Positions 2,136 through 41,400 of a stretch of DNA of 64,000 nucleotides are shown here, piece after piece. The DNA lies in the NCBI GenBank assembly GCA_012976225.1, contig JAAVVG010000015.1, positions 310,001 to 374,000 on the forward strand, in the 5' to 3' direction. The position numbers and the translations under genes were made by a program. The notes under the pieces are model-generated. The model was not told the origin of the DNA. It was given only the letters and a program-made list of their open reading frames with translations, and did no database searches. This DNA is from Golubevia sp. BC0850 (taxonomy: Eukaryota; Basidiomycota; Exobasidiomycetes; Golubeviales; Golubeviaceae). The stretch's first letter is position 1. Every line of letters starts with the position of its first letter.

Positions 2136-3236
2136 GGCTGAACGATTTGAAAGAGAATCTACGTTGAGAGTTTTCGATACAAGTGGCTTTGCGACCAAGT
2201 TTAAAGTCTCGAAAGCATTCACAATCAAACAATCAACCTTCAAGCTTTACTTTGGAGCGACCAAAAAGTGAGGTACAATACAAACAGGTTGACAAGAGAG
2301 GGAAGGGTGTTGGAGAACGGGGAGACAGAGCAGATCAAGCAGACACAGGGACGTAGGAACTTCATGATTTGTTACACTTTCGACCAATTGACTGCTTTTT
2401 ATGATGGACGTCAGCAATCTGGGGCGGCTTCCTAGCCGTCGCTTAATAATCCTCGTTGGCAAGCATCCTGGCGACGAAATCACGTCCCTCGTTGGTGGAC
2501 AAGAAGTCCTCAGCTGTCAGAGTAGGAGATCGAGGTCAAAGATGTTTGGAAGAACGTCAGATACTACTTTAACGTACGAAACAATCTCTGATGACCTATA
2601 GAAGTAATGAACTAACCTTCTTTGTTCTTGTCAGTCGCTTTGATGATACCCCTGGTGGACAAGAGAAGGGGATGAAGAGAGTCAGAACAGGGGTTTCCAT
2701 TGGGTTTTCTGACTGGTCAATTGTTTTAACTTACCATGACGTTAGTCCTCCAACTCCCAAAAGTGCTGCATTGGCTAACACTGGAACTATCCAAGTCTTG
2801 AGCTCTGCGCCGAGGGCGGATCTTTGGGTAGGAGAGTCATGAAGTTCGAAGTCTTGAGCCAATTTTGATGTGAAGGCTTTTCCTTCATCACTAGCAACAA
2901 AATCCTGGGCTAGTGTAGGAAAGACGGAATCGAAGGGACAAGGAGTGGGAAGATTTGGGAAGGTCAGAAAACAGATTTGAGAAGATAAGACCGTCGACGC
3001 TTCGGTTCGAAAAGTTCAACTCACCTTCCTTGTTGCTCTTGGTTCCTTTGCTGGCGTGGAGAATCCTGAGAGTAGAGACATATATATTAAGTCGAGAGGG
3101 CAGAATAGAGTCAGTACTTTCCCACGTAAGAGAGGATTCAAAGTTGGTTCTCACCAAGCACTGAGGGCAGTGGTGACAGCGGCCGCTCCTCCCCAGATAC
3201 TAGCTCCCGTCTTGCTGAAAGGATCTCTAGCAGAGA
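2136..3236. repeat. Inverted repeat block 1, left arm (1101 bp)
   Basis: Read in reverse complement, this block matches 18076-19176, with paired coordinates always summing to 21312. I found no mismatch or indel over 1101 bp by eye, across exons, introns and about 300 bp beyond the stop codons. Similarity stops abruptly at both ends: at 2136 against 19176 in the 3' flank, and at 3236 against 18076 inside an exon coding SARDP. Confidence 0.95.
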
Positions 3237-4112
3237 TGGAACCGAAGTCATAGTCCTGGAAGACAAGTGGAGATGAGAGAGGAATCAGAAAGAGGTTTGA
3301 AGTACGGGTCGCGGTGGCTCTGAGGGTGAACGGATGTCTGTTGCCAGACCCTTCTTCTCCTTCGTGTAAGCGTATCCAGAGTGCCTGGAACTATCAGACT
3401 AGGCAAGAGGCGTCCTTCAAAGACTACCTTTCCCATGCCTTGAAATCAGAACTCACAAGAGCTGACAGGTCTCTTTTGTCGACAAGATCAGTAGCCATCT
3501 TGGAAACAAAAGCCTTTCCATCAGCGCTGTCCATAAAATCTTGGGCTAAATAGGTGGATGAGGAATTGGGAAAGGAGAGAGAGAGAAGAAGAATGGGTGT
3601 CAACTTGCTGTTCACGGTCCGAACAAAGACTTCTCGCCTTTTTTTCGACTGGAAACTTCTGACTCACCTTCTTTGCTGTTGGGATCTCTGCCAGCCGCCC
3701 AGAAGCCTCGAGGGAGCGAAAAGAAGAAGGAAGATCGAGAGGGAAAGTCAGTGCTTTGCCTAGATTAGGGGATGTTCCCAAAGCCTGTTTGACTTAACTC
3801 ACGCAGCAGCCCTGGTGGCGGAGACAAGGGCTGCAGTTCCGCCAATAGCAAGGTCTGTCTTTCTCCAGGGATCTCTAGCAGAAATCGAGTCAGACCTCTG
3901 AGGAGTGAGAAGCAATTAGAGGGGAGGACCAAGAAAGGGAGGAGAAAGAGCTGTGAGATTTTGCAGTGATGAGTGATTTTTCCCTCATCCATCCTCATCT
4001 AGCAACTTACCTGAGCTGGGCCATCTCTTGGTCCTTGGTCGACAGGAGCTCCAAAAACAGTAGAGCCCATCATGGTGACGAGAAGAGTCACAGTGATCTT
4101 GGTGAAGTGCAT
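2443..4112 (-). CDS. Small secreted protein A, unrecognised modular family
   Basis: Nine exons are inferred: 4112-4011, 3897-3803, 3687-3668, 3545-3457, 3255-3155, 3065-3025, 2909-2735, 2651-2617 and 2513-2443. All joins keep phase and give 242 residues. The protein starts MHFTKITVTLLVTMMGSTVF and then GAPV, a clear signal peptide. The rest is repeats of a unit with SARDPxxKT, a Gly/Ala-rich hydrophobic stretch and a charged motif KEAxDFxxSxxGKxFxxKxA, which occurs three times. One exon is only 20 bp. Exons 5-9 are identical to exons 2-6 of gene B (17865-18869), while the signal-peptide exon and the extra first module differ. I recognise no known family. The secretion signal and repeats would suit a surface, wall or effector-like protein, but that is inference. 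Confidence 0.8.
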
Positions 4113-4205
4113 GTTGACGCTACAGACAAGCTTGAGGTGAAAGAGTTTGAAAAAAGGGGGTTGAAAAGATACAGAGAAAAAAAATTAAACTGGCTAAAAT
4201 TGAAG

Positions 4206-4262
4206 TTGAAAAGAAGAAGAAGAAGAAAAAGAGTAAGAAGAAGAAGTAGTAGTAGTAGTAGA
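4206..4262. repeat. AAG/AGT simple-sequence repeat in 5' leader of gene A
   Basis: A run of AAG triplets passes into five or six AGT triplets, about 100 bp upstream of the gene A start. Gene B has pyrimidine tracts at the matching place instead. The repeat is probably length-variable between strains. Confidence 0.75.
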
Positions 4263-4317
4263 AGAACGAATGAAAAGAAGAGAAGGAAAGGAATTGGAAA
4301 AGAGTCAAAGAGTTCAG

Positions 4318-4326
4318 CTTATAAAA
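4318..4326 (-). promoter_or_regulatory. TATA box of secreted-protein gene A
   Basis: The minus strand reads TTTTATAAG followed closely by GAACTCT, about 206 bp upstream of the ATG at 4112. Gene B has ATAAATAGAACTCTT in the corresponding promoter position, so the TATA-like element and the adjoining GAACTCT are shared although the rest of the two promoters has diverged. Confidence 0.6.
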
Positions 4327-4423
4327 TCCTTTACTTTCCGGCCCGGGTGATTTAATGAGTGAAGTCGCCGAGTGATAGGGGTTCGCTGCCTCAGAGCTTC
4401 GAATTCAAAAGCTAAGGTGGGAG

Positions 4424-4765
4424 GAGGATAACCAATCAAAATAAGCATCATTTGGATCGAGCTCACACCGATTCATTAACAATCTCGGGGTGTCAAGCAT
4501 TTCTGAAATCTTTCTTGGTAAGATTTGGGAAATTCCAGAGGAGCTATGTTACCTGGCCCCATTTCAATCTTCCTATGTATGTATGTATTTCCCGTTCCGT
4601 TGTCCCTGTGTAGTCGATTCTCCTCATCCCTTGTTCCCAAACTTGTCTCATCTGATGATCGAAGTTTTGAAGAGTTTAACTGATACTACAAATTTACGAA
4701 CACGAATAGACTCTTTCAACCCTTTGAAGTGTCTTCACGGTGGGCATGATATCTTCTGAAGGTAA
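4424..4765. repeat. Segment repeated in direct orientation at 17166-17497
   Basis: Strings such as CATTAACAATCTCGGGGTGT, TCGGGGTGTCAAGCATT, CTCATCCCTTGTTCCC and CTTCTGAAGGTAAT recur in the same order and on the same strand in the right arm. The rest of the arm matches only in inverted orientation, so this piece has been flipped in one arm. Confidence 0.75.
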
Positions 4766-4980
4766 TATGACGGATAAAGTTTGGAAAATCCAAGTTTGAG
4801 AATGAGCTGTAAACCGAGCTTGAGATTTGAGGCTTCATCGAGAGCTGAAACGTTGAAGGCTGAAGTCGAGAGAAGCTCGATTCCTCGAGCTGTGGCACTT
4901 ATACTATTGGCCATCCAGGAAATCCTATGAGAGTAATGTTCTCGAGGGTGTCGAATGATTCGAGTATGGTTCATGTGATT
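4735..4980 (-). pseudogene. Decayed F-box/LRR-like fragment, left arm
   Basis: The minus strand codes pieces such as NHTRIIRHPREH, and its DNA matches 16565-16780 in inverted orientation at roughly three bases in four. The right copy continues into an LRR-like stretch that is missing here; the left similarity stops at the junction with the flipped segment near 4770. Assignment to an F-box/LRR-like family rests on the right copy and is tentative. No intact reading frame remains. Confidence 0.45.
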
Positions 4981-5033
4981 ACTTATAGCAGAGAGAGGAG
5001 GGGATGAGAGCAGAGAGAAGATCCCCCCCGGGG

Positions 5034-5286
5034 CTCATCCAAATCTGAGATGTAAATGGTTGTTGAACGTTGAATCTTTCCCAATCCGATCTGACACAGT
5101 TTCATTCCGAATGATCTCATAACCTGAAGTTTCCAACCAAAGCTTCGCCAATTCTGCTTTCCTTTCCATTCCTGAAGGCACGCTGAGCTTGGTTCTTCCT
5201 CCTAGTTCTTCATTTTGATGGAGTTCAATCCAAGATGGATCTAATCAGGACAGGATACTGCGAAGTCGAAAAGTTCGAAGGATAGC
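5034..5286. repeat. Inverted repeat block 2, left arm (253 bp)
   Basis: Reverse complement of 16272-16524, with paired coordinates summing to 21558. I saw only about two mismatches. The inner end is sharp after GGATAGC. The block lies 285-537 bp upstream of the NIK1 start, and its partner lies 141-393 bp upstream of the TRAPPC11-like start, so the two convergent genes share this upstream sequence. Confidence 0.92.
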
Positions 5287-5570
5287 TTGAAGAAACAGAA
5301 GAAGAGGAAGAAGAAGTTCCCTTCTTCAGCAAGTGACAGTGTTAAAGGTCCGAACCTTAAGTGGTAGGCTGTATGAATCTCCGCTACTCCTTGTCCTTCA
5401 CCTCCTTCTCCCCCCCCCCCTTGACCCTGCCCTCTCATTTCACTCTGATATAGAGAAGAAGCTCAAACCTCAACAAACCTTTCAATCCGACCACCGCATC
5501 TACTATCAGCCAGAAGGAAGCCCCTCCTCTATCCTCCTCCTACTCCCTTAAGCTCCAGCTGCTCCTCATC
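5287..5570 (+). promoter_or_regulatory. Proximal promoter and leader of NIK1
   Basis: This non-repeated stretch upstream of the ATG is strongly pyrimidine-rich, including an 11-C run at 5410-5420 and several CTCCTC tracts, as is common at fungal transcription starts. No clear TATA box is visible. Confidence 0.4.
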
Positions 5571-8500
5571 ATGGCTGCAGTAGCTGCTCCTTCAAACGAG
5601 GCAGCCAATTCTTCAGCTAATACGAGTAACTCAATTCCAATGGCAATGCCATCAACACCATCTTCTTCAACTTCTTCAACTCATTCTCATTCAATGTCAA
5701 GGACAACTTCTTCACCTCTACCAGATATGGCCAATCTACCAGATGATTTCATTGATCACTTGGTTTTAGTCACTGCAGGTCTAGCAAACTCTTTACCACC
5801 TCCAGCAATTAGAAGATTCTTAGAAACTACAACTACTTATCTTCCAACGACTAACGGCAGTAATGGTGCTGCTGCTGCTGGTGCTGGTTGGAACTCGGCT
5901 GGAGGGAATCAATCCAGAAACTTCGTAGGTCTACCTCATCAATCATCAACAGTGACAGCTACAGGAAGTGGCAATGGGAATGGGAATGATCAATCTTCTA
6001 CTGCGGCTGGAATCAAGTATATCACCAGGCAGACGGAAGAGATGAACCTCAATCAGTCCTCCAACTCCTCCAACCAACGTCACGGCCATTCTGCCTCCTT
6101 CTCCTCTGCTTTCGAAGATCAACCAGCTCCTCCTTCTCCAAGGAGTGATTATGAGACTGCAGATGGTCATATCTCAGAGGACACTTCAACAAACATTCTC
6201 TCTCCTTCAACCTCTTCATTGAATCCCTCAGATGAATCCTTCGCTTCAGCCAGCACCCCAACTCCAACCAATAGTGGTCTACCTCAAGCTTCGCAGCCTT
6301 CTCCTCAACCTCAACTTCCAAACAACGCTCATTATTCAGATCCAGGTTCAGAAGGTGTAGTCTCAATTCCATTGCCAAGGTTTCATTTCGATGGAGGAGA
6401 TTCAAGAACTCAAGAGATAGAGGCCAATATCGGTAGATTGGTGGAAAGGTTATGGAGAGCGGAAGATAAGTTGGAATCTATAGCTTTGGCTTCAAGAAGA
6501 GGTTCAACTACAACGGATAGTGGAGATAGCGTTGGAACTGCAAAGGAAGAAGGGGTGATGTCTAATTCCAGGTCTAACTCGAAGAGAAACAGTGTAGATG
6601 TTGAAGTTCAAACTGCAACTTCAAGCATTGCTGGTTTAACTTCTCCATCGTCAGCAAACAATCCTTCAAACTTGATGTCACCTCTTTCATCAGACTCTGC
6701 CAAAGAGATCAATTCATCCTCATCCACAGAGGCTACTGACAACAGTTCGGTTAACTCAAATGACAAGACTCCATTGTCGTTCTTCCGTAACTTTCCTTAT
6801 CCTCTATCTCATGCTCATCCTCAATCTTCAACTTATCCATTATCGTATCCACTTGGAATGGGTTCGGATGGTCCTGTTCTATTAACTTCTGGTGGAGATG
6901 GAACTGGCCCTGAAGGAGCTGTCGGAGCCTTCGAGAGATACAGTGACGAAAGTGGTTTGAGTGCTCAGGAGGAATTGAGATTGTTGAAAGCTCAGGTGCA
7001 AGATATCGCTAGAGTCTGTAAGGTGAGTCGTCGCGTTGTCGCGTTTCATGTCGAATCGAGTCAATGAAGGAGCGAGAGGGAGGGAGGAGCTTGATGCAGA
7101 GAACCTGATGAGCCTACACTAGAAGGAAGTAGAGCACTAGCGTTCTCCAAGATGCCTTAAAAAGAATACTGATCTTCTTCGCTCGCTCCGATCCCGTCAC
7201 TTCTATCACCTCCTCAGGCTGTAGCTTTCGGAGATCTCTCTCAGCACATTACTGTCCCTGTCCAGGGTCACGTCATGGTGGAACTCAAAGACATCATCAA
7301 TCAGATGGTAGACCGTCTTTCCAATTTCGCTGCCGATGTGACGAGGGTTTCTCTAGAAGTAGGAACTCAAGGAAAGTTAGGAGGTCAAGTCGAAGTAGAA
7401 GGAGTCGAGGGTAGATGGAAAGAATTGAAAGACGTGGTTAACAGATTAGCTGAAAACTTAACAAACCAAGTCAGGGGAGTAGCTTTAGTCACCAAAGCTG
7501 TAGCTAAAGGTGACCTCTCTAAGAAGATTGACGTCCAAGCTGATGGAGAGATTTTGGAATTGAAAGTCACTATCAATGTGATGGTAGATCAATTGAGACA
7601 TTTTGCAAACGAAGTCACTAGGGTTTCTAGAGAAGTAGGAAGTAGAGGTCAGTTAGGTGGTCAGGCTCATGTTCCTGGAGTTCAGGGAGTTTGGAAGGAA
7701 TTGACTGTCAATGTGAGTTGCGCTTCGAGTTCACTTCACTCTCTTTCGGCAAGACTTTGGTCAACTTACTTTGAATCCTCTTCCTTTCTTTGTGATCTCA
7801 ACTTCTAGGTGAACCGAATGTGTTCCAACTTGACTGAACAAGTACGCTCGATCGGAATGGTCACAACTGCCGTCGCCAAGGGAGATCTTACGAAGACTAT
7901 CGACATTGACGCAGAAGGAGAGATGGCTCAGCTTAAAGACACTGTCAATTCCATGGTTGGTCAATTGAGGATCTTTGCTAGTGAAGTAGTCAGAATGTCA
8001 ATGGAAGGTGAGTGAAAAAAAGTGAAGCTTTGGCTCTTCTTTCGTCCCAACCTTCTGACTTGATAGAATCTCCTTTCGACCCAATCTTCTGACTTGATAA
8101 AATCTCCTTTCGACTTTTTCTCATCTAGTCGGAACTTATGGAAAGCTTGGAGGTCAAGCTCACGTTCCAAACGTAGAAGGAACTTGGAAGGATCTAACAG
8201 AGAACGTAAACAAGATGGCCGACAACTTGACCTCTCAGGTCAGAGAGATTGCTAGAGTCACCAAATGCGTAGCTGAAGGGGTCTTGACGGAATTCATCAC
8301 TGTCGATGTCAAGGGAGAAATTCTGGACCTCAAGATGACTGTCAATAACATGGTCAGGCAACTCAAGACTCTGAGCGATGAGATCATCAGAGTGTCGGTC
8401 GAAGTAGGAACTGAAGGAAGATTGGGAGGTCAGGCGAACGTCGATGACGTCAAAGGTCAATGGCAGGTCAGTAACGTCAAGCTCATTTGGCAGTCGAAAA

Positions 8501-11021
8501 GGGCGCATCGCCAGGAGGCTCACATCGATTCCATTCTCTTTCCCTCCTTCCTCCAGGTCTTGACCGAAAGAGTCAACATGATGGCTAGCAATCTAACAAC
8601 TCAAGTTCGTTCTATCGCCACTGTCACCACAGCTGTCGCTCGTGGAGATTTGAGCAAGACTATCAACGTCGAAGTTAGCGGAGAATTCCTGGATCTGAAG
8701 TTAACTGTCAACAACATGGTGGAATCGCTTCGAACCTTCTCAACTGAGGTAACTCGTGTCGCCAAAGAAGTAGGAACCGAAGGGAAGCTAGGAGGAAGAG
8801 CCACTGTGCTCGGAGTCGGAGGAACTTGGAAGGATCTTACCGATTCGGTCAACACCATGGCCGCCAATCTGACTCTGCAAGTGAGAACTATCGCTCACGC
8901 TACGACTGCTGTCGCTCGTGGAGATCTAACTCAAAAAGTTACCATCTCTGTCTCAGGAGAGATTCTGGATCTAGTCAATACTATCAACAACATGATTGAC
9001 CAGCTCTCCTTCTTCGCTTCGGAGGTCACTAGAGTGGCCAGGGAAGTAGGTACGGAGGGTAAATTGGGAGTTCAAGCTCAGAAGAAGGACATCGAAGGAA
9101 AGTGGGGCGAAATCACCGACAACGTCAACATCATGGCCAACAATTTGACCTCTCAAGTACGTGCTTTCGCTCAGATCACAGCCGCTGCTACCGACGGAGA
9201 TTTCACTCGCTTCGTCACAGTCGAGGCCAGTGGAGAGATGGATTCTTTGAAGACCAAGATCAATCAGATGGTCTACTCTCTGAGGGATTCCATTCAGAAG
9301 AACACTGCTGCTAGGGAAGCTGCCGAGTTGGCTAACAGATCCAAGTCTGAGTTGTGAGTAATAGAGTTTTGAAGGGTCAGTTCGAATCCACTTCAACTCA
9401 CGATTCTTCTCCTTCCTCTCTACTCTCCAGCTTGGCGAACATGTCTCACGAGATCAGAACTCCAATGAATGGAATCATTGGTATGACTGCTCTCACTCTC
9501 GAAACCGAGCTCTCTCGAAGCCAACGTGAGAACTTGGTCACGGTCTCTACTCTCGCTGGAAATCTTCTAGCCATCATCGACGACATTCTGGATATCTCAA
9601 AGATCGAAGCTGGTCGCATGAACGTCGAGGAGATTCCATTCTCTCTTCGTGGAATCGTCTTCAGTGTCCTAAAAACTCTGTCGGTCAGAGCAACGCAGAA
9701 GAAGCTGAATCTCATGTACGAGGTCGCTCCTGACTGCCCGGATCCTCTCATCGGAGATGCTCTTCGTCTCAAGCAAATCATCACCAATCTGATCGGAAAC
9801 GCTGTCAAGTTCACTGAAGCCGGAGGAAGAGTAGCTCTCAAGTGTACTCTAGCCAAGATCGCTTCTCCAACTCAAGCCCTTTTGGAATTCTGCGCTTCGG
9901 ACTCTGGAATCGGAATCAAGCAAGACAAGCTGGACGTCATCTTCGATACATTCTGTCAAGCCGATGGATCTACCACTAGGAAATATGGAGGAACTGGTTT
10001 GGGTCTCTCGATTTCTAGGAGGCTGGTCAACTTGATGGGTGGAGATCTTTGGGTGAGAAGTAATTACGGAAGAGGTTCCGATTTCTTCTTCACTATGCTA
10101 GTCAAACTCGACGAGATCAACAAGATCCAAGTTCACGATAAGATGAGACCTTACCAAGGAAGGAACATCTTCTTCTTGGATACTCTTCACGATCAGACAG
10201 GAGTTCAACCAATGTTGGAGGAGCTTGGACTCAAGCCATTCACAGTTCATAGCGTCGAGGAAGCTACTCAACGTAAGAGAGGAATGCCAAGAATCGATGC
10301 CATCATCGCTGATTCCCTATCGGTCGTCGAAGATCTACGAACAGTCGAACATCTTCGTTACATTCCTATCAATCTAGTCTCCCCTGCTACTCTCACTCTC
10401 AACTTGACCTACTGTCTCGACCATGGGATCTCTTCTTACATCAACACTCCAACTACTCTGGCCGATCTCTACTACGCTCTTCTACCTTCGTTGGAAAGTT
10501 CTGCTGCCACTCCTTCAGAAGGTAACAATGAGGTCACCTACGACATTCTTCTGGCAGAGGACAACATCGTCAATCAGAAGCTCGCCTGCAAGATCCTGCA
10601 GAATCAAGGACACAAGGTCGATGTCGTCGACAATGGTCAGCTCGCTGTGACGGCTGTCAAGAAGAGACAGTACGATGTAGTCCTCATGGACGTGAGCAGT
10701 GAGTACCGATTCTCCTTCGTCCTCTTCCTTACTTGTGTTTCTCGCTAACCTTTTCATCTTTCCTCTTTACGTTCCCTCTCTCTAGTGCCTGTCATGGGTG
10801 GTATCGAAGCAACGATTGCTATCAGAGAATTCGAGGCTTCCTTAGGAGACGAACCAGTCCCAATCGTAGCCCTCACAGCTCACGCCATGTTGGGAGATAA
10901 GGAAAAATGTCTTCAAGCTGGAATGTCCGCCTACGTGTCGAAACCAATTCGTCGAGTGGAGCTGATTTCAACACTTCACACTCTTCTTTCCGGCAAGAAA
11001 GGTGCAGGTAACCGTGCTTAG
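5571..11021 (+). CDS. NIK1: Group III hybrid histidine kinase (Nik1/Os-1 type)
   Basis: Seven exons (5571-7022, 7218-7712, 7809-8007, 8129-8466, 8557-9353, 9431-10698, 10786-11021) join in phase to give 1594 residues. After a Ser/Thr-rich N-terminus of about 470 residues come seven HAMP units, each marked by a GDL-type motif and a KLGGQ-type linker. Then come the kinase H-box [15 protein letters not shown] with His near residue 1100, the N-box GNAVKFT, and the glycine boxes DSGIGI and GGTGLGLS. A receiver domain follows with phospho-acceptor Asp in LMDVSMPVMGG near residue 1514. Proteins of this class are cytosolic, feed the Hog1 osmotic-stress pathway and are targets of phenylpyrrole and dicarboximide fungicides. 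All catalytic motifs look intact. The gene sits inside the inverted repeat and converges with the TRAPPC11-like gene. Confidence 0.97.
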
Positions 11022-11622
11022 TCTCTGACTTCTTCTTCTATTGCCATCCTCAACATCTATGCTCGATCTTCAACTCTTCCCGGCTGCCTTAAGTATCCTT
11101 TATCGAAGTAAGGAGAGGGAGTCTTTTCTTCTGCTCTTCACTCTATTTTAAATGTATCTAGATTTTCCTAATCGCAACAGTACATAGATCCATCAGATTA
11201 AAAAAAGACAGCAATCCAAACTCAAAAAAAACCCCAACCACATAATTCAATTCAATTCATCCTCTCGAAGAGACGCAAACCAACCTAAACGCAACGACAG
11301 TATTTCTCCCCAATCTCACCAAGTCTCTCATCTCCTGTCTCCCTCGAATCCGCCCCCGCTTCCCAATTTTCTGTTTCTCGACCAGGTTTCGCCTTTTCTT
11401 TTCCAATGTTTCTTTTTGTCTTCTTTCATGACGTCGTTTTCCCCTCTTCATCTCCTCCCTTTCATCTCTTGTCCGCCCATCCTCTAATCTATCGTTCCCT
11501 TCCGATTCTGTACCATACGACGAACACTCAATCAAACAAATTCTGTCAGTTCTTTTTTGGTTGCTATGATCTCATTCGGCGAAAGAATGAAGCTATGAAG
11601 TGTCTGATGTAGATACAAGAGC
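11022..11622. other. Intergenic between convergent 3' ends
   Basis: About 600 bp separates the NIK1 stop from the stop of the TRAPPC11-like gene. It holds A-rich tracts near 11190-11240 (AAAAAAAGACAG-like and CAAAAAAAACCCC) that may be polyadenylation regions. I see no supported gene. Confidence 0.5.
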
Positions 11623-14600
11623 TCACAAAACTAAAAGAACGTCTCCGTGAGAACTTTCGACTCTGAGTTTCTTCTCTTGTCCTTCGACCTGACTTCTCTC
11701 GTGAGCTCGAATTTTTGGTAACTTTCCCTTTCCAACCATGATCGGCATCAGCCTCAGAGTGATTCTCCTTTCCGTCTCAGCCAGTAATGTTGGGATGCTG
11801 AGAGACCTTGGACCAGTGAAGATGAAGGATTCCGAGGATTCTAGAGTCAGCTGTATGCTTGAGGAGCGAGAACTTGGATTGCAGATCGTGATCGGTAGAA
11901 GGAAAGGCTCATTCAATCTAGCAGTGGAGGGTGGCGAGATGAAGACGGAGGTCTCTCTTTCTAAAATAGGAGGGAGTAAGGAAGGGAGAGGGATCGATGT
12001 CTTGAAGTACTTTGAGGATTCTAGAGACGAAAGAGCTCCTGCTCGTCTCCATTTGATCTCGTAAAATCCGATGCTTGAGGGAGACTCCCCTGAAGAATTT
12101 GGGTCACAAAGAGCCTCGATCTCGTGAATGGTGGAGTATCTGTCGCCTTCCTCCCAAGTTCCCGAAACGCTTTCCTCCTCTGGAGTGGCTTCTCCTCTTG
12201 ATGGTACGAACCATACGCCCGATCTTGGTTCCTGCAACTTGAGAGAGATCGACCGAACTTCGAGAGGTTGAGACGCTAGAGAGGAGAAGCAGGCGCAGAG
12301 GCTCCCCTTGGCACTTCGATTGACCTGAAGCATCTCTTCGTCGTCATCACTATCGGTGACGTCGTCTTCATCCTCCGGCATAGAAGAGTCCGAGTGGCTA
12401 CCAATGAGTTTGAAAGCCCTTTGAGCAGTACGTCTTCTTGCTCCAGCGTTGCGAGTCCTCTCGAGGCTCCATCTCGGCGAGATCTGGCTAGCGAAAGGTG
12501 CTCGGACCGGAAGTTGGATCTTCTTGGAGATTTCACTACTGACCGAGGCAGCTGCTGAAGAGGATCGAGTCTTGAGAGTGACGTTGATCGATCTCGAGGC
12601 TGTGTGCTGGCTTGTCGACAGGAAGAAAGAGAGACTTCCTGAAGTAGAAGCACCGAGCGTACCGAACGAGAGATCTTTCAGAAAGCCGGGATCCTTCGAA
12701 TCTTGACACGAGAGAAAGTCGTAAACCTTCCCGTCCGACCCAGATCCGGTTTCTACAAGTTCGACATCGACGTGGCAATCCAGCTCTTCCATCTCATCAT
12801 TCCTGACTTCCACTTTGATTTCGAATTCTTCATCTAAATAAGACTCCTCTTCGTGTAAGAGTCGGAGATCCACCTTGTGTCTTCGAGGCTTGATGAGAGC
12901 ACTACCGGCGTCCGATCGATGGGGAAGTGCTAGAGGGCGTGTCGAAGGCGCTGGCGACGACTTTGACTTGGTGGTGACATACCAAAGCGGCTTCTGTGCT
13001 GGCGCTAGCGAGTCGACTCGAAGAGGAGACAGTGAGATCTGAAGTGGTGCCCGATCTTCTCCAGCGAAAAGGATCGCGTGGGAGAGCTGCAAGGAGTGGA
13101 GAGATAGGGAAGGGAGGGTGAGTATCCAGAAAGCGAGGTGCCTTGGAAGCTTTCCGCTTTGACTTACTCGGACTTCTCCAGCACCGTGGGCACTCAAAGT
13201 GCCCTCAAAGATCTTAGCGCATCCTTCAGCCCAACGTAGATCAGCTTGAACTTCAGTGGGAGCGTCTCCTAAACGGATGTCGCCGAGGTGGGCCACTTCG
13301 GTCTTGACATCTACTTTCTTTTCTCCTTTCTTGATGATGGCACATAGAATCTGATCTTTTGAAGAATCTGCTTCAGCTTCTGTGACTTGCTGGAAGAAGA
13401 GCTGCAGAGAATCGAACTCTAACTGTTCGAGAGCACCGACCGATCCGTTCTCTGGAGCTGATAATTGAACTTGAAAGGGAGTCGAAGATCCGAATTCTAG
13501 CTCCTGGTGAAGAAAGACACTTTCCAGTCTGATGAAGCCAGACTTTGACGAAGTAGAGATCAGACCCTCCGCCTCTTTGTCCTTCTCGGGAAGTTCACCT
13601 AGCGAGATCTGGAAGGGTCTCTTCTCCTCTGGCAGAGAACCGGATTCCAGAAGTTCCACGAGCTGTCGAGTTGAGTCAGATCTTTGCGATGGAGATAGAG
13701 GAAGAGCTGGATCCAGGAGCTCGACTAGAGCTTTCAGCCTCGAACCGACCTCGCCTGCGCTCTTTGCGCACTCAGCTGCCATCAGGAGTAAGGAGGCTAG
13801 AGGTGGCTGCCAGAATTCTTTTCGATAGGTCTTGGCGATTCTTTCCATGAACCGGAGCGCCATTTCGAATTGGCCATTGGCATAGTAGGAGGAGGCGATC
13901 TTCGAAGCCACGAATAGAGAGAGCCGAGTTTGGTGTGCTCGCTTGAAGGATTCGTAAGCTCTAGTCAGAGCCTGATGTGAGAAGGGTGATAGGAAGAGTC
14001 AGTGATCTTGCACGCATAGAGGTCAGGATAGGATCATTCTTTCAACTCCACTCACCTCTGTAATCTGACTCAGATGATCAACCTTCTTTTCATGAAGTAA
14101 GGCTGGTTGGTTCTCCAGATAGCTCTCTTTCCCATTCGTCTCCATCTCCTTCTTCTCCATCTGCAAAAATCTCTCCCTCCTTTCGATAGAGCAAAGAGCC
14201 GAGATGTAGTAGAACCAACCCGCACCTTCGAGAAGAGCTGAGGGGGAGACGGCAGAGTTGGTCGCCATTGGACTTGGAGGATGAAGTGTAGGATAGAGGA
14301 ATCTTGGATCTAGACCTCCAGAAGCTGCCGAAGAGACCAAAAGAGGGTGAAGGATGTTTGAAGGTAGAGGCGGAGCGTGCATTGGCAGCGTAAAAGGTTT
14401 GAGAGGAGCTCCTGGAATCTCACGAGTAGCCACGTCTACCAAGTCTCCGAACATTCGGTATCTGTAATCAGAAGCGCATGGATAGGTATTGGTATCATTC
14501 AAATGCTCAGACAAACTATGCGCTGGGACCAGAAATCTACTCACTGTTTGCCCAGCCAACTCCAAAACTCGAAAGTAGCTTCTCCAATGCCCCAACCCGT

Positions 14601-16131
14601 ACTCAGTTCGACGAATCTATGGATGTGCTTCTCGAATTGCTTCTTAGCTTTGAATCCGTCGTCATTGTAAAGATGAAGTTTGCTGATCCTGATGCTCAAA
14701 GCGTCAGCCAAAACTTTGGCTTCAGCCCATCGTTTCGTCCTGGGAGGTAGATGCATCGTCGAGCCTAGCAAGCTGTTGGCAAGAATGTCATAAGCTTCCA
14801 GATAATGACCCATAGCCGTCTCATTATCACCTTGCATCTCTGCGAAGGTTGCTAACTTGTATTCGGCTCTCACTTGCCAACCTTCTCTTGAAAGAGCGAC
14901 CAGATTGGAGTTTCCAGAAGAAGGGGAAGCGGCAATAAGGATTGGCTGAACGATTGAAGGGGGAGGTGGATACCTCGGTCTTTTCCTCCTTATCCTTCGA
15001 ACGTGTTCTCGATAGAAGTCCAGAGAAGAATCATATAGAGCTCCTTGTAGAGAAGTGACGAACTCTCCGAGCTCAGGCCTTGAGACAGGAGTTAGGACGA
15101 AGAGACTGGCTTTAGAATCTAACCCTGAAGATCTTCTGAGATAGCTTAACCTAGCTTCCAATTGAGGGTTTTCTAGCATAGACCGACTAGTCAATAAGAC
15201 TACAGTCAACTTGATCCCTCTTTCCACTAAACCTCTCTTTCGTTCAGCTATCGTCTTGATTAGCTCTTCGTCTTTAGCTTTCAGTTCCTCCATGCTTGAA
15301 GCTTCTAGACCGCTTCCATCGAACTGAGCAGCTTCTCCAGGTCCTGAAACTGCAACTAGAGGAGGTGGTTCAGCTAGACAGTGGAAGGCAACGAAAACGC
15401 TGGGAACCAATTCTCGATGCTTCCTCAACCAGATTGGAGCTATGATTCCGTCTGGGAACAAGGGACTTCCAGGATGTAGAGGAGATAGAGGTGATCTAGC
15501 TGGGAGAGCTGATAATGCTGAAGTACTTGAAGAGTCTCCATTGGGATCTGCGGAAGAGATTGGTGCTGGAGGAGCTGCAACTGATTTAGGATTGGGTCGA
15601 GTCTTGCGAGGTGGAAGTCGGACGCTCTGAGATGAAAGGGAAGAAGTAGAATCTGAATAAGTGAATCAAGTTTTTCTGCCCTTCGACTGCGCTTCTAGAA
15701 TCGAAGTAGCAGCTGTGGGAGAAGAGCAAGTTTCCAGGTCTAATCTTTCCTCCTTCGACCAGTCTCGTGTCCCTGCAAGTTCGTCTCTGGATTCCTTCAG
15801 AGAGCAAATCTCAATTCTGCGGCTCTGTGTGCCTCTATCAGGCCTCTTAATCTTATCTACTCACATGGTCGACCATGACACTCTTGAACACTGCAGCCCC
15901 ACCTCTAGCTGGATCCCATACCGAGTTCTTGCCTCTGGCTCCGAAGATTTCTACCAGATCCTTTGTCAGACTGGGGAAAGAAGTTGAAGGAGGTGTAATT
16001 GAAGACTGAGATTGTGGAATGGTTGAGGTAGAAGGAGTTGACGTTGAGGTGAAAGTAGTTGGTGGAATGAGACCTGCGACCAGCATGCAGGGAAAGTGTT
16101 GATACACTAACTCGGCTGGATAAGAATTCAT
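11623..16131 (-). CDS. TRAPPC11: TRAPPC11-like trafficking protein (Foie-gras/Gryzun type)
   Basis: Five exons (16131-15865, 15626-14545, 14461-14056, 13971-13168, 13086-11623) join in phase to give 1340 residues. The N-terminus MNSYPAELVYQH, the string SVRLPPRKTRPNPK and the block FPDGIIAPIWLRKH are typical of fungal TRAPPC11 relatives. The region with WAEAKVLADALSIRISKLHL and FEFWSWLGKQ fits the Foie-gras helical domain, and the second half is beta-rich like the Gryzun region. The family acts in a TRAPP tethering complex in ER-Golgi transport. The start at 16131 has a good context; an in-frame ATG at 16182 would add 17 residues. The 81-bp intron 13167-13087 is a multiple of three with no stop codon, so retention would leave the frame open. 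Confidence 0.85.
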
Positions 16132-16271
16132 CCCAAAGCCCTCCAATCTTCTTGTATTGGGGTCGTTAGATGAGGAGATCAAGTGTTATTGGGGCTTTGC
16201 TTGGTTGGGATGAGAGAAGCTAAATGCTTCTACTGCTTCCCATCAACGCATCAACTCCAACATCCTTTCCG

Positions 16272-16524
16272 GCTATCCTTCGAACTTTTCGACTTCGCAG
16301 TATCCTGTCCTGATTAGATCCATCTTGGATTGAACTCCATCAAAATGAAGAACTAGGAGGAAGAACCAAGCTCAGCGTGCCTTCAGGAATGGAAAGGAAA
16401 GCAGAATTGGCGAAGCTTTGGTTGGAAACTTCAGGTTATGAGATCATTCGGAATGAAACTGTGTCAGATCGGATTGGGAAAGATTCAACATTCAACAACC
16501 ATTCACATCTCAGATTTGGATGAG
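16272..16524. repeat. Inverted repeat block 2, right arm (253 bp)
   Basis: Partner of 5034-5286 in reverse complement at about 99% identity. It lies just upstream of the TRAPPC11-like start codon, so it probably includes promoter sequence. Outside the block, similarity drops at once on the inner side and to roughly 75% on the outer side. Confidence 0.92.
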
Positions 16525-17510
16525 GCGGGGGAATATTCTCGCATCCCTTCCTCGCCTCCTCTCTGCAAGTACATAATCACATCAACCATACTCAAATCAT
16601 TCGACACCCTCGAACACATCACACTCATAGAATTACCTGGATCGTCAACAGAAGAAAAGTCAAAGGTCGAGTAATCGAGCTTCTCTCGACTTCAGCTTTT
16701 AACTCTCGATAGTCTCAAGCTCGGTTTACAGTTTACAGCTCGTTCTCAAACTTAGACTTTCCAACCTTTTTACCTTACTGGAGCTCAACCTCAATCCAGA
16801 TGAAGCATTGAATGCTCCTGAGACTCAGGCTGCTTTTGATCTCCTGCGGAACATCTCCAAGAAATGTTCTTCAAATCTATTGTCCATCAATTATCACAAT
16901 ATCCAACCGCCCAAGCTCCCTACTAAACAGCCTGGTTTCTCTTTCCTGAATGTTGTGGAGTTGTATCCAGGTTCTGGAGATGAGACAGCAGGAAGATGGC
17001 TCTCAAAATGGAGCTGGCCGGAACTCATATGTTTGAAATCAAGTAAGAATTTAGCTCTGGATTCATACCCTTTCTTCCCGTCAGAAAGCACAGTTAAGAG
17101 AGAAACGCGGATAAAGTCCGGAAGATAAGGTGGAAGGAGGACAAATGATCGGAACGGGTGGAGGGAAGGAATCAAAACAAGCATAACATAGATCGAGCTC
17201 AACCAGGTCAGTTCATTAACAATGTCGGGGTGTCAAGCATTCTGAATTCCTACTTCGTAAGATTTGGAAAATTCAGAAGAAACTACGTTACCTCGCCCCA
17301 TTTCAACCCTCCTATTCATCTTGTTCCCGTTCCGCTGTCCTATGTCGATTCACCTCATCCCTTGTTCCCGAACTTGTCTCATCTATGATGATTGACGTTT
17401 TCAAGAGTTGTACATATTCACAATATTCATGAATGCGAATAGATTCTTTCGACATCTTGATGGTGTGCATGATGGCTTCTGAAGGTAATAAATATGCCAG
17501 ATAGTGAGGG
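16525..17510 (+). pseudogene. Decayed F-box/LRR-like sequence, right arm
   Basis: The plus strand codes discontinuous pieces with leucine-rich-repeat character: LKSFDTLEHITLIELPG ending SSTEEKSKVE, then LLELNLNPDEALNAPETQ through NLLSINYHNIQ and FSFLNVVELYPGSG. A later piece ends SPHPLFPNLSHL. Stops and frame changes separate them and I could not build a clean spliced gene. SPHPLFPNLSHL also occurs in the left arm at 4616-4651. The ending SS-E-KSK resembles the C-terminus of the F-box/LRR-like gene at 35317-36801. The pieces are most easily read as remains of one or two F-box/LRR-like genes. Confidence 0.5.
17166..17497. repeat. Segment repeated in direct orientation at 4424-4765
   Basis: This is the right copy of the piece that lies in the same orientation in both arms, unlike the surrounding inverted similarity. 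It covers the decayed SPHPLFPNLSHL coding fragment and ends near CTTCTGAAGGTAAT. Confidence 0.75.
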
Positions 17511-17687
17511 TAGATTTAAAGGGTGTGTAGTGTAGATCTGAGGTCTGTTCCTGCGCTAGGGGTGCAACAGCAACTTTCAATATGTCATTTCCGAGCTTCC
17601 GGATCTGTGCTTCATTTGCAACCCAACTTAAAATCTAAGGCAGCGTGCCCCTATCCCCTTGGCGACTGCACTCATGCCCCGGAGAGT

Positions 17688-17697
17688 ACATAAATAG
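17688..17697 (+). promoter_or_regulatory. TATA-like box of secreted-protein gene B
   Basis: ACATAAATAG followed directly by GAACTCTT lies about 170 bp upstream of the gene B ATG. The same TATA-plus-GAACTCT arrangement stands upstream of gene A, which supports a shared promoter origin. Confidence 0.6.
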
Positions 17698-17864
17698 AAC
17701 TCTTCGTTCTTTTCATTTCTTCTTCTCCATCTCCTGCCCTTTCTTTCTCTCCTGTTCTTTCACTTCTAACTCTATCCAGTAGCCGGTCTACTTTTCATCT
17801 CTTTCTTTTTCGTCTTTTACCCCTCTTTTCAACCTTTAGCCTCAAGCTTCTTTGCAACGTCAAC

Positions 17865-18869
17865 ATGCACTTCACCAAGATCACTCTAGCTCTCCTGGTC
17901 GCTATGGCTTCGACTACTTCTGCAGCTCCTGTCCAAGACAGAGAAAGAGACTTGCAAATTGAGGTGGGTTTCAAAAACGCATCAGAGAAGGTGAACACGA
18001 CCATCAGCGCAAAGCCTCACACCTCTTTCTACTCTCTTCACTTCCGCTCACACCATTCTCAGGAATACAGCTCTCTCTCTGCTAGAGATCCTTTCAGCAA
18101 GACGGGAGCTAGTATCTGGGGAGGAGCGGCCGCTGTCACCACTGCCCTCAGTGCTTGGTGAGAACCAACTTTGAATCCTCTCTTACGTGGGAAAGTACTG
18201 ACTCTATTCTGCCCTCTCGACTTAATATATATGTCTCTACTCTCAGGATTCTCCACGCCAGCAAAGGAACCAAGAGCAACAAGGAAGGTGAGTTGAACTT
18301 TTCGAACCGAAGCGTCGACGGTCTTATCTTCTCAAATCTGTTTTCTGACCTTCCCAAATCTTCCCACTCCTTGTCCCTTCGATTCCGTCTTTCCTACACT
18401 AGCCCAGGATTTTGTTGCTAGTGATGAAGGAAAAGCCTTCACATCAAAATTGGCTCAAGACTTCGAACTTCATGACTCTCCTACCCAAAGATCCGCCCTC
18501 GGCGCAGAGCTCAAGACTTGGATAGTTCCAGTGTTAGCCAATGCAGCACTTTTGGGAGTTGGAGGACTAACGTCATGGTAAGTTAAAACAATTGACCAGT
18601 CAGAAAACCCAATGGAAACCCCTGTTCTGACTCTCTTCATCCCCTTCTCTTGTCCACCAGGGGTATCATCAAAGCGACTGACAAGAACAAAGAAGGTTAG
18701 TTCATTACTTCTATAGGTCATCAGAGATTGTTTCGTACGTTAAAGTAGTATCTGACGTTCTTCCAAACATCTTTGACCTCGATCTCCTACTCTGACAGCT
18801 GAGGACTTCTTGTCCACCAACGAGGGACGTGATTTCGTCGCCAGGATGCTTGCCAACGAGGATTATTAA
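17865..18869 (+). CDS. Small secreted protein B, unrecognised modular family
   Basis: Six exons (17865-17963, 18063-18157, 18247-18287, 18403-18577, 18661-18695, 18799-18869) join in phase to give 171 residues. The signal peptide MHFTKITLALLVAMASTTSA is followed by APVQDRERDLQIE. The mature part has SARDPFSKTG, a Gly/Ala-rich hydrophobic stretch, KEAQDFVASDEGKAF, a second hydrophobic stretch TWIVPVLANAALLGVGG, then KEAEDFLSTNEGRDF and the end MLANEDY. It is the paralogue of gene A, with one module fewer. From inside exon 2 to about 300 bp past the stop the two genes read as identical, introns included. I recognise no named family. The alternation of hydrophobic and charged segments could suit membrane contact, which is only inference. 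Confidence 0.82.
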
Positions 18870-19176
18870 GCGACGGCTAGGAAGCCGCCCCAGATTGCTG
18901 ACGTCCATCATAAAAAGCAGTCAATTGGTCGAAAGTGTAACAAATCATGAAGTTCCTACGTCCCTGTGTCTGCTTGATCTGCTCTGTCTCCCCGTTCTCC
19001 AACACCCTTCCCTCTCTTGTCAACCTGTTTGTATTGTACCTCACTTTTTGGTCGCTCCAAAGTAAAGCTTGAAGGTTGATTGTTTGATTGTGAATGCTTT
19101 CGAGACTTTAAACTTGGTCGCAAAGCCACTTGTATCGAAAACTCTCAACGTAGATTCTCTTTCAAATCGTTCAGCC
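18076..19176. repeat. Inverted repeat block 1, right arm (1101 bp)
   Basis: Partner of 2136-3236 in reverse complement with no difference found by eye. It covers most of exon 2 to the stop of gene B and 307 bp of 3' flank. Confidence 0.95.
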
Positions 19177-19470: not shown

Positions 19471-20252
19471 CTAAAGCAACAAGAAAGAAGCCCCTCCGAT
19501 GAGACCTAGAAGAACAGCTGCGGGCTGGGCGACTAAAGATAGTCCTCCATCTTTATCATCGTTCGAATCAGAGTTTAATCCTGAGTTTGATCCAGCGTCG
19601 GGAGTTTGAGTGCCACCATTGATGGTCAATGAAAGGTTATAGCATTTTCCATCTGGGAAAGAAGGGAGAGGAGATGATGAAGAGTCAGGGTCGAATTTAA
19701 GGATGAGCTTGTTCAGAAGAGTAACAAGAAAGTAGAGGAATGTGAGATGCAATAGGCTATCATTCTATCCAGCTTCGAAGGAGATCCAATCACTAGCACC
19801 TGTTCTGGCTCTCATTCACCAACCCATTTTCACTACTCACTAATCAGAGGACCATCGCAGCAGCTGTGTTCACCATTGATCTCAATGTCCGCACCACTAC
19901 TGCAAGCACTGCCTCCAGTTGAAAGCCCTTGAGTTGGATGGTTCAAAGTGATACTGGCGTACTTAGAGGATCTGCTTGCCAGAGCAGAATCCAGGGAATC
20001 AGATCGACTAGAAGCTGCTGCGCTTAAGGAAGAGCTTCTCGAATCTGCAGCCTGAGAAAGAGATTCCATACGAGTTGCGGCAGCATCTGAGGCTGAGGAT
20101 AATTTCCCATTCAACTCAGATTGAATTGAATCGCCGAGATCTTGTCTGGCTTGGATGTCAGCGACAGCAGCTGGAGTTGCGATTGGACCTGGAGCTGCGG
20201 CTACTGAAATGGCGAGAGTGATGATAGATAGAGATAGTATTGAAAGCTTCAT
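19471..20252 (-). CDS. Predicted GPI-anchored Ser/Ala-rich surface protein
   Basis: Two exons, 20252-19841 and 19652-19471, join in phase (GTGAGT donor, TTTCCCAG acceptor) to give 197 residues. The protein has a signal peptide (MKLSILSLSIITLAISVAAA, then PGPIATP). A central region repeats SRSSSLSAAASS-type units, and a short Cys-containing segment follows (SACSSGADIEINGEHSCCDG, then GKCYNLSLTING). A Gly/Ser/Asp-rich linker leads to a hydrophobic C-terminal tail ending GLIGGASFLLL without charged residues. That tail is the usual sign of GPI attachment, so the product is probably displayed on the plasma membrane or cell wall. A TATA box lies 80-90 bp upstream. I recognise no specific family. 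Confidence 0.8.
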
Positions 20253-20331
20253 GTCGAGTTAAGTGAGAGGTTGAGTTGAGTTTCAAGTTGAGTATGGGTA
20301 GGAGAAGTTCAAGTCACTGAAATCCACACCC

Positions 20332-36801: not shown

Positions 36802-38422
36802 GGATGTGAGAGCCAGTCCATAGAGAGTGGAGTCTCTCAGTCTAGTGGTGGTAGATTCAACGTAGAAGGAGAAGATAGAGTCAGGATAGTAGCATCTTTA
36901 GGTGGAAGGAGAAACGAGAAAGTACTGACCTTCTAGCTTTCTCTCTCATCTCTTCGTCACCATCTTTTGTTTCCGTCCAGCTACTCACTTGATGAACTAC
37001 TTGTCCTGCTAATCTTCAAGAAGAGTATCCAGATTGAGCTGCACTGACTCGTATTTCTTGCTATGGTCCTGATTTTGACTTATGACTGATGAAAGAGTTG
37101 TAAAGAAGAGCAAATTTGACCAAAAGGAGGTCAAGGTTTTCGTTTTCGCATCGGGTTGGTGACCAAATCATCGAGACCCACCAATTTCGGACCCCTTCAA
37201 TTTGAATAACATTGGAGCTTTGTAGCTCGTTTAGACTTGCTTGCCTCATTGAGCTTCATCTTCACTTTCTCCCCTCTTCAGATGTGGTTTAAGAGCTCGC
37301 CCCTGATCTCAGATTTCTGGTTTTTCCTCATTGATCCTTCCTCTTTCTTTCGATCTGCAACAATCTTTTTCCTCGTCTTGGTTCTCCCTGGTCTTACTCA
37401 GAGTATCTCTCCAAGGAACAGTCGGATGAAATTCAGGTTTGAGCGAGATCAATCGATCCGAGTGAGTCGGCGGCAAGTTAGATGAACGCGAGACTCTAGC
37501 TGAGGATGAGTAGAGAATTCCAGTCTCAGCCTATATCTTTACAAAATCAGTATGAAGTCAAAGGTAAAGATCACCCGAAGTCTCCAATTTCAGATCATCT
37601 CAGAGAAGATGATTTGGAGAGAGCATTTCAAAAGTTGAAAAGCTAAGAGCATCGTTGTGTTTGATACGCTTTCTGATTTGCAAAGTCAGTCACGTATGTA
37701 TATTAGTCAGATGTTAGAAATATGCTGATGATGGTCAAGAGAGACGGGGATAGACGATGTTGGCGGCTGTCGAAACCAGCCAGATCTAGACCTGACGCCC
37801 AAATCCTCTGACAGCAAAACAATGATGTTGGGATTCTACCAACTCCTTTTCTCTCAAACACTGAGTGGTATGCACGTCCAATCAACCAGAGTGAACAAAG
37901 ATGGGTGAGGTGAGTATTTCGAATGTGTTGTGTTTGCCTCGGGGGGTCGCTGTGCTGTCACGTGTAAGATTCTCCCTTCCCAATCTCCAAGCTGAGACAT
38001 CAGACACAGACACCTCCCTGCCCTTCGAGCAATTTCCCAAAATGGACATGGACGATCCAAGCACATTTCTGCAAAACAACAAATACAGCAAGAGAAGGAG
38101 AAGGGCAAAGAAGCTGTCATTGGAAAAAGCTATCCCCATTCGTCGGCCCCTCTTGTTTACCCCTTTCCTCTCTCTCTTCTCTCTCTTTTGCCTCTTTCAT
38201 TCCCTTCGTTCAACTTGCTACACTATCATTCTCATTCACTCTCTTTTATTCCTCAACTTCAAGTCAAGGCTCGGTCACAAGTCTCTCTTCCTTCCTCTCC
38301 TTTCTCTTGCCACTCACCCCCTGCTCATCTTCCAGCAAGAGTTTCCTCTTCTTCTGACTTTGAACTTCCGCTTTCATTCCTTCTAATTACTTCAAGGTCT
38401 TCTATCAGTCACTCTGGACAGG
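36802..38422. other. Long intergenic region upstream of the RhoGEF gene
   Basis: About 1.6 kb. The part from 36802 to 37250 may hold the unrecognised 5' end of the minus-strand F-box/LRR-like gene. From 38140 to 38420 the sequence is pyrimidine-rich (CTCTCTTCTC-type tracts) and is probably the leader of the RhoGEF gene; it contains several short upstream open frames. Other open frames here show no domain and I do not call them, apart from one 46-codon frame listed separately. Confidence 0.45.
37506..37646 (+). CDS. Possible very small protein (46 residues), unrecognised
   Basis: An ATG-initiated frame starts MSREFQSQPISLQNQYEVKG and ends LERAFQKLKS. Its composition (Gln, Glu, Lys and Ser, a likely amphipathic helix DDLERAFQKLKS) looks more like protein than the surrounding sequence, but there is no homology I recognise. 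It could be a genuine small protein, the last exon of a spliced gene starting near 37240, or chance. Confidence 0.25.
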   Translation: MSREFQSQPISLQNQYEVKGKDHPKSPISDHLREDDLERAFQKLKS

Positions 38423-41400
38423 ATGTTCTCCTCTTCGCCTCGACCTAGCAACAGCAACCAGCACCTCCGCCATCCGAACAACATCAGCCATCCTCTTCAA
38501 CCTTCACCAATCAGTAGACCAACAACTCCGAATCTTCAACCTCACAATCAAAGGTCTAGAACAGTATCTGGAAATGAGAGCCGGAACTTGACTCCCATTT
38601 CGAGCCCAGCTGCTTATCATGGTCAGAGAACTCCAATTGCTTCCACTCTCAACCCTGCCTCAAGGAGTCCAAATCCTAAAAGACCAACCTCATCTCATAG
38701 AACAATCGATTCAACTTCTAGTTCAGAGTACTCGCTATCTGCAGCTGCTCCAATAGCCGGTCATGGAAGTGGGAATGGAGGAAAGAGGAATCAGCGTCAA
38801 GATGCATCGGCACAGAAGAGTGCCAATGCATTCGACATTCAACAGGAGATACTGCAGTCGTATCTGATGGGAATGGCGAATCCTGTTGGAGTTGGAAATG
38901 GGAATGGAACTAGGAATGGAGCCGGAGGAAGTCAGTCCCAACAATCCAACATTCACCAACAAGTTCTAGATGAGTATGGATTGGGATCGTCGCTGAACCA
39001 CCAGCAATATCTAGGCAGTCAGAAGGATGGGAGGAGAAAGTCATCAAGCGGGAGAGAAAGGGTTCACAGCTTCAACTCTTCTTTAGGAAATGGTGCGATG
39101 GGAGGAGGGACGGATGGTGCTAGGTACCTCAGTTCAAGTCTCAACATCAACATTTATGACAACGAGAATGGAATGACCAAGCTAGGGAAAAGAAAATCAA
39201 GATCTAGTTTCCTTCAAGATCAATTTGATGGTAACGCAAGCCAAAATCGTGCTGGAGTAGGGTCTTCAGCCTCGAGTTACTCTCAACCTCTACCTCAGGG
39301 AGATTTCAACCATTACTATGAACCTCAATTCTCCTCTCATTCGTCCTCCTCCAATGATTACTACAAGACTTCCCAGCAATCTCCAGTTCCATCTCAATCG
39401 CACTCTAAACCACCCCCTCGTAGTCCAAGGAACAAGTCGAAACCTATCAACCGGAATGGCTTCTCCAACTTCCCCTCTACTTCCGACTCTCCTCCGCCAT
39501 CTCAATCTTCTTCTAATTATTCTCAGGAGAGTAGTCTGAGTCATCATCAACAGTCCTTCGACTTCCCTCCCCCCCCGCCTCTCAATCTCGCTCATCAAAA
39601 GCAACAATTGGAACTTCAAAAGACTCGTAGAAGATCAAGGTCTCTTTCTAAGATTATAGCTCATGATGCTGCTATGGGAGAACAGTTAAGGTACACCCTG
39701 ACTCCTCCTATACCTTCGTTGGATCAAGGCCATGGTCAATTCAATTCAACAGATCGAGAGCAAAGCTACGGGAAGCAGGAGTCAGGTTTCAAGATGCTGA
39801 AGGTCAAGAAGGACAGGGATTCAAACAGGATTAGATCCATCAGCACTTCAGGACTTGATCTGGTGGAAAGCAAGCAGGAATCTTCTAGTCCAAGTTTCAA
39901 CGGTTCGACAGGGCTCTCCCATCAACAGCATCTTCTGGTAGGAGATGAGAATGGAGGTGCGGGAAGATCTTCGACTCTCAAGAGAAGATCAAGAACTTCT
40001 TCCAACCTGTCTAGGTCTCCTCATTCGAACGGTGCAGGTGGCCTCGCTTTGGAAGAGAATTCGATTCGATCTGCCGTCAGTTCCTCTGGTTTATTCCCAT
40101 CTGAAATGAATGGACTGAACTCCTTTGATCAATCTAATTCTATAATCGGTAGAAAAAGATCCAACTCACACTGTCTTTCAGCCGTAGATATCGAGCTCAA
40201 CTCCAACCAAGCTTCTATTCTCTCAACCCCAACCTCTACAGTCAAGAACAGAAAGAGCATCCAGTTGAGTCCTAGATCTTCAAACATTTCTCATCCTCAA
40301 CAAGCAGTGGTCCAACAATCTTCTTCTCAGGCCGGTGAATCTAATGATGAGAAGAGGTCGAACGGTAGAAGGTCTTCGTTCAATGGGGACAGGAAAGAAG
40401 CCAAGGCAACCATCAAGCACGAAGCGAGTACTCTAGTCACGGTATCCAACCTCAAGAAGGTAGAAATGAGAGAAAGTTTGATGGGTTCGACTCAGACGGA
40501 GGAAACAAGATTGGACTCAAGAGAACCCGAATCGTACCTGACTTCAGACCGAGTTGGTCGACCTTCTCCCAAATCCGCAATTCTAGCAACCTCAAATTAC
40601 GATTCTTCTTCCCTTGCATCGTTCTCAGCTTCAGAAACCAACCTTCCTTTCAGACCTCCAAGATCTACCAGAAGAGCCTCTACAGTTCAACCTCTCCGGA
40701 TCTTCTCCAAGCACAGCCAAAGCCAAATCGAAGGAGATCGCAAGTCAGCTCCCAACACTCCATCTCTACCCAAATCTCCGCTTTCTATCAGCATTCCAAT
40801 CAATCATTCTTCGAACTTGGACTCCTCCTCTTCAGCGTCCTATCGAAATGAATCCCAACTCAGTGCTTCTCCTCAAGTCGATGGTGGATTCAAGAGATCG
40901 ACGGACGGTTTGAACCTGGACTTGGATCTAGACAACGATTTCATCTCACATTCAACAGATCTAGAGGAGCAGAAAAGGCTGTCTTCCAACTCAATCAGAA
41001 GGAAGAAGAGAAATTCTGGTTTGAATCCCAAAGAGAGAAGGAACTCTAGTCAACAGCAGGATGAGATGAAGAAAGAAGACTTGGCTGCATTCAGGAAGGA
41101 GATCTCTGACGAGAACAAATCCAGAGTGGCGAAAGTGGAAAGAGAAGAAGCAGAAACCAGAGCTGCCGTCGAAGCTGGAGAGAGGAGTGCAGCTGCGCGA
41201 GCGACGGTTCGAGGAAGAGTCAGAAGAACTCAGATCTTCGAAACCAATGGGGCCCACGTTCAGGACTTCACCTCCAACACCACCATCACCTCTCAAGCAA
41301 TGGAACAAGTCTCTTCTACCAAACCTCTTTTGCAGTCTCAACCGGATCCAATCTCTTCAACTCCAGCCTCTTCCGAGCCAAACGAGCACCCTCATGCAGC

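Follow-up and report, generated by a model that had tools for sequence, protein, structure and literature searches.

The 64-kb window, by which we mean the whole stretch of DNA analyzed, contains two inverted arms that are perfectly or almost perfectly alike at their ends and strongly diverged in between, with part of the diverged middle flipped in one arm. On balance, this locus probably represents an old inverted duplication that has been partly homogenized by non-allelic gene conversion.

The arms were delineated by self-comparison of the window, with all exact repeats of at least 22 bp listed in both direct and inverted orientation. The two longest exact repeats of either kind are the tracts at the ends of the arms, the third longest measuring only 28 bp. 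Tract 1 pairs 2136-3236 in the left arm with 18076-19176 in the right arm, in inverted orientation and with 0 differences over 1101 bp; it can be extended to 2130/19182, giving 1107 bp at 99.8% identity with mismatches at 2133 and 2135. Tract 2 pairs 5034-5286 with 16272-16524, again inverted, with two mismatches in 253 positions (5054 and 5068; 99.2%), and its exact portion amounts to 218 bp (5069-5286 on the left and 16272-16489 on the right). These values bear out an earlier sequence-only reading of the same DNA, which had recorded identity by eye over 1101 bp and about 99% identity over 253 bp. The window contains 0 ambiguous bases (N). One end of each tract lies within older collinear homology. 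In tract 1 this end is near an exon start; in tract 2 it adjoins an older, diverged shoulder (4776-5033 on the left and 16525-16769 on the right; 82% by global alignment), such that identity climbs from 82% through 99% to 100%. The outer end of tract 1, where the edge is abrupt, and the opposite end of tract 2 coincide with the limits of detectable homology, a feature that the earlier reading did not record.

Between the tracts, the arms are 66-82% identical where they are collinear. Global alignment gives 71% identity for exon 1 of the left and right genes described below and 66% for the 300 bp upstream of their ATG codons, and the exon-1 stretch 4041-4159 is 77% identical to the other arm in local blastn. 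Elsewhere the homology is barely detectable: in the left arm, bins 3280-3929 (about 650 bp) have only 20 columns aligned to the right arm, and in the right arm, 16770-17155 (about 390 bp) finds only short, weak matches in the left. Hence, the claim that the DNA between the blocks is strongly diverged or unalignable holds, as does the unevenness of identity along the arm, with perfect tracts beside DNA that is 18-34% diverged; uniform identity would have favored a simple duplication. The middle also includes a feature absent from the earlier reading, namely a segment of about 350 bp at 4419-4767 in the left arm and 17156-17490 in the right arm, whose copies are 77% identical over 356 columns in the same (plus/plus) orientation. 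As this segment is direct while the whole arms are inverted, it has been flipped in one of them. It adjoins the relic of a leucine-rich-repeat-like (LRR-like) gene.

Each arm carries one intron-rich gene for a small protein, running outward from the spacer between the arms, together with an LRR-like gene relic. Our hand-built models, with GT-AG introns throughout, give a left gene at 2443-4112 on the minus strand (nine exons, 242 amino acids and three repeated modules) and a right gene at 17865-18869 on the plus strand (six exons, 171 amino acids and two modules), which match one another. Tract 1 comprises the 3' part of the left gene with its introns and about 300 bp downstream; it spans both modules common to the two genes, and of its 1101 identical bases, 697 fall outside the modeled coding exons. 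The remaining module of the left gene, M1 (3457-3897, minus strand), corresponds to nothing in the right gene model. The modules are mutually related, as 0 of 500 shuffles reach the observed score in each of the three pairs, and the nucleotide identity of M1 to M2 (59-65%), set against the 71% between the left and right first exons, gives a weak hint that the module predates the arms. To keep exon 3 of the left gene in frame, the model needs an acceptor that lies within the counterpart of the short exon found in the other modules, and an acceptor at the position homologous to theirs would shift the frame; in this hand model, either the acceptor may be real or M1 may be decaying.

Both small proteins have a signal-peptide-like start, as judged by eye. 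They show no convincing match to Pfam (best E = 0.54 for the left and 0.19 for the right protein), and the best match of the left protein among PDB sequences has E = 0.39. The module consists of a hydrophobic stretch, a short linker exon and a KEAQDF..EGKAF-like motif, and these modular small proteins possibly constitute an undescribed repeat family. The LRR-like relics, labeled as such by eye, lie on the tract-2 side of each arm with stops in their frames, and the left copy of tract 2 falls inside one of them. An LRR-like open frame at 16703-17128 (plus strand), likewise recognized by eye and without Pfam match, mostly lacks a counterpart in the left arm.

Two genes unrelated to the arms occupy the spacer. 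One, at 5571-10748 on the plus strand, encodes a hybrid histidine kinase with HAMP repeats, which we take to be Nik1/Os-1-like. HAMP, HisKA, HATPase_c and partial Response_reg domains were recovered in the ORFs of 7173-10748, the extent of the domain scan, and 5571-7067 is assigned to the gene by position alone; the receiver domain is cut at 10748, so the gene extends further. The other, at 11623-15665 on the minus strand, encodes a Foie-gras_1/Gryzun protein of TRAPP-type trafficking and was scanned as two ORFs (11623-13998 and 14541-15665). Adjoining the right arm, 19471-20258 (minus strand) specifies a serine/alanine-rich protein with a signal-peptide-like start and a hydrophobic tail, GPI-anchor-like by eye, whose gene is apparently split by an intron and whose first part has no Pfam match. 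Self-comparison of the window found no copy of this gene at the left arm. Farther along are a very long open frame of 1967 amino acids that ends in a RhoGEF domain (38387-44290, plus strand) and an EF3-type ABC/HEAT protein (59319-61340, plus strand). The latter, together with the HAMP-repeat hybrid histidine kinase and the intron-rich genes, makes the gene content of the window look fungal. A search for RNA elements gave no tRNA and nothing at the Rfam gathering score, and an RNA element was rejected on these grounds.

The mosaic departs strongly from chance when matched and mismatched columns of the alignments are shuffled. For the 4776-5286 alignment with its 489 columns, a run of at least 218 arose in 0 of 20,000 permutations, the longest being 132. 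A second set of 1740 columns was made by placing three collinear pieces end to end, namely tract 1, the exon-1 region, and tract 2 with its shoulder, leaving out the unalignable parts and the flipped segment. Here a run of at least 1101 arose in 0 of 5000 permutations, with a maximum of 238, against an observed run of 1103 that includes two columns added by the join. This result, along with the coexistence of 0% and 18-34% divergence within one unit, rejects a single duplication with even aging, in agreement with the sequence-only reading. Protein-level selection is rejected as the cause of the identity, since the identity extends through introns and downstream DNA. With both ruled out, copying between the arms is the natural reading, and one that also fits what reviews on mirror-image paralogs in flies and worms describe (PMC3924832, PMC3966223). 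Runs of identity longer than chance between otherwise diverged paralogs and identity at silent or non-coding positions are criteria of ectopic gene conversion, and both are found here. At one end of each tract, the position within older collinear homology is the trace expected of homology-driven copying; the other end of each stops with the detectable homology.

We accordingly envisage a history that is pieced together from the pattern in this one genome. A unit of about 3 kb, with a small signal-peptide-like gene and an LRR-like gene, would have been duplicated in inverted orientation to flank two unrelated genes; judging from its diverged middle, this would have happened long ago. The arms would then have diverged by substitutions, indels, the loss or gain of a protein module, and the 350-bp flip in one arm. 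Recent homologous recombination between them, as non-crossover gene conversion or as conversion with crossover, the latter of which would invert the spacer of about 15 kb, may have transferred sequence from one arm to the other: about 1.1 kb or more at the outer end, and 218 bp or more at the inner. Pairing would probably fail at the heterologous middle with its extra module, flip and indels, which would thus have retained its old divergence. We infer the process, like the number and direction of the events, from this mosaic. Of the earlier proposal of repeated gene conversion or arm-to-arm exchange, arm-to-arm conversion emerges as the best-supported part, and "repeated" goes beyond what the mosaic shows.

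What counts against the simplest form of conversion is that the perfect tracts are flush with the ends of the homology. In a crude simulation, two independent tracts are flush at opposite ends with a probability of 0.02, 0.06, 0.13 and 0.24 when tracts average 300, 600, 1100 and 2000 bp in length, respectively. The flush ends are better accommodated by a recent inverted duplication of the whole unit of about 3.15 kb (2136-5286), with the middle of one arm later replaced by sequence from a diverged donor, either an allele or a third copy located elsewhere. The repeat would then be perfect at both of its ends, the tracts would stop where detectable homology stops, and one duplication plus one replacement would suffice in place of two flush conversions. 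However, this scenario calls for an unseen donor with a partly flipped middle diverged by 18-34%, no further copy was found within the 64-kb window, and recombination in so diverged a stretch would be hard unless the donor had the same perfect flanks; we consider it unlikely, if worth serious attention. Hence, the earlier view that the arms were homogenized rather than newly duplicated is retained as favored, with the flush ends as the observation that it fits less well. A different account of the abrupt outer edge of tract 1 is that part of one arm of an old inverted duplication was recently re-copied by replication-based repair, that is, break-induced copying with end joining. The right gene model is one module short and the tract starts beside a short exon-start motif common to the left modules M1 and M2, as such an event could leave it. 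Against this, no trace of the replaced 3' modules or of earlier homology turned up beyond the right edge, and the introns give no clear out-of-register signature. Over its full length, right intron 1 resembles the left pre-M1 intron more closely (z 6.2) than the pre-M2 intron (z 3.7); taken by halves, its 3' half scores similarly against the two (the score is reached by 14 and 29 of 1000 shuffles, respectively), and its 5' half is like neither of them (308 and 524 of 1000). We regard replication-based repair as decidedly improbable; out-of-register conversion may plausibly account for the missing module in the right gene.

The absence of any difference in 1101 bp also raises the question of whether assembly or polishing wrote the tract of one arm into the other. 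The distinct flanks and distinct 5' ends of both genes, the two differences carried by tract 2, and the lack of any N in the window all speak against such an artifact, and identity reaches the unique flanks, where short anchored reads would be expected to preserve differences; we hold it to be improbable, only slightly less so than replication-based repair. Perfect inverted repeats of 1.1 kb lend themselves well to inversion, and the arms might accordingly be pictured as a working switch: the 15-kb spacer would turn around together with the histidine kinase gene in it, and the two small genes would exchange their 5' and 3' parts. Yet no recombinase family was detected among the 22 distinct proteins or ORFs scanned (a part of the ORFs of the window), the identical 3' halves imply that a flip would alter neither product, and nothing indicates that both orientations of the spacer occur, so that we give this reading the least credence of all. 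Nor did the same 22 yield a Pfam match to mating-type families (receptor, homeodomain or pheromone), pheromone genes being too short for the scan. Almost as improbable is a maintained recombination device, in which the perfect blocks would keep exchanging and the flipped, non-pairing middle would shield the 5' ends; module number would diversify in these small secreted-type proteins and the remainder would be kept uniform, and the histidine-kinase segment might invert as well.

Searches for relatives were made in collections that are a poor place for a fungus: in viral_contigs, 13 stretches matched a peptide pattern and 0 were confirmed, and genome_contigs gave no exact 29-base match. No description of this locus is apparent from the titles and opening lines of abstracts among the literature matches listed. 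The locus is ordinary in kind, as conversion between mirror-image paralogs is already well known. Read as conversion, it would provide a clean single-locus case, from a fungus, of inverted paralogs evolving partly in concert, in which a nested flip may set the limits of exchange, and gene-family trees of this small protein would blend two histories within one gene.

Among known systems, the P/R loci of Cryptococcus have pheromone gene copies in divergent orientation (PMC12510652). Unlike these, the present locus has no recognized pheromone or mating-type gene and encodes small signal-peptide-like proteins of no known family at E < 0.1. For hsp16-1/hsp16-48 and other inverted pairs of Caenorhabditis, conversion was favored over recent duplication, and in two of the early studies that the review covers, conversion tracts extended into introns (PMC3966223). 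The hsp16 modules are 416 bp apart in that account, whereas the present arms are about 15 kb apart and alike at their ends only. The Hsp70 (Hsp70Aa/Ab and Ba/Bb) and Amylase pairs of Drosophila are linked mirror-image paralogs homogenized by ectopic gene conversion, a case that, in the review, rests on comparison with orthologs and on shared polymorphisms and not, as here, on one genome (PMC3924832). The present arms differ from the Drosophila pairs in their separation of about 15 kb, the two unrelated genes between them and the partly flipped middle, and resemble them in being linked paralogs in mirror-image orientation (PMC3924832).
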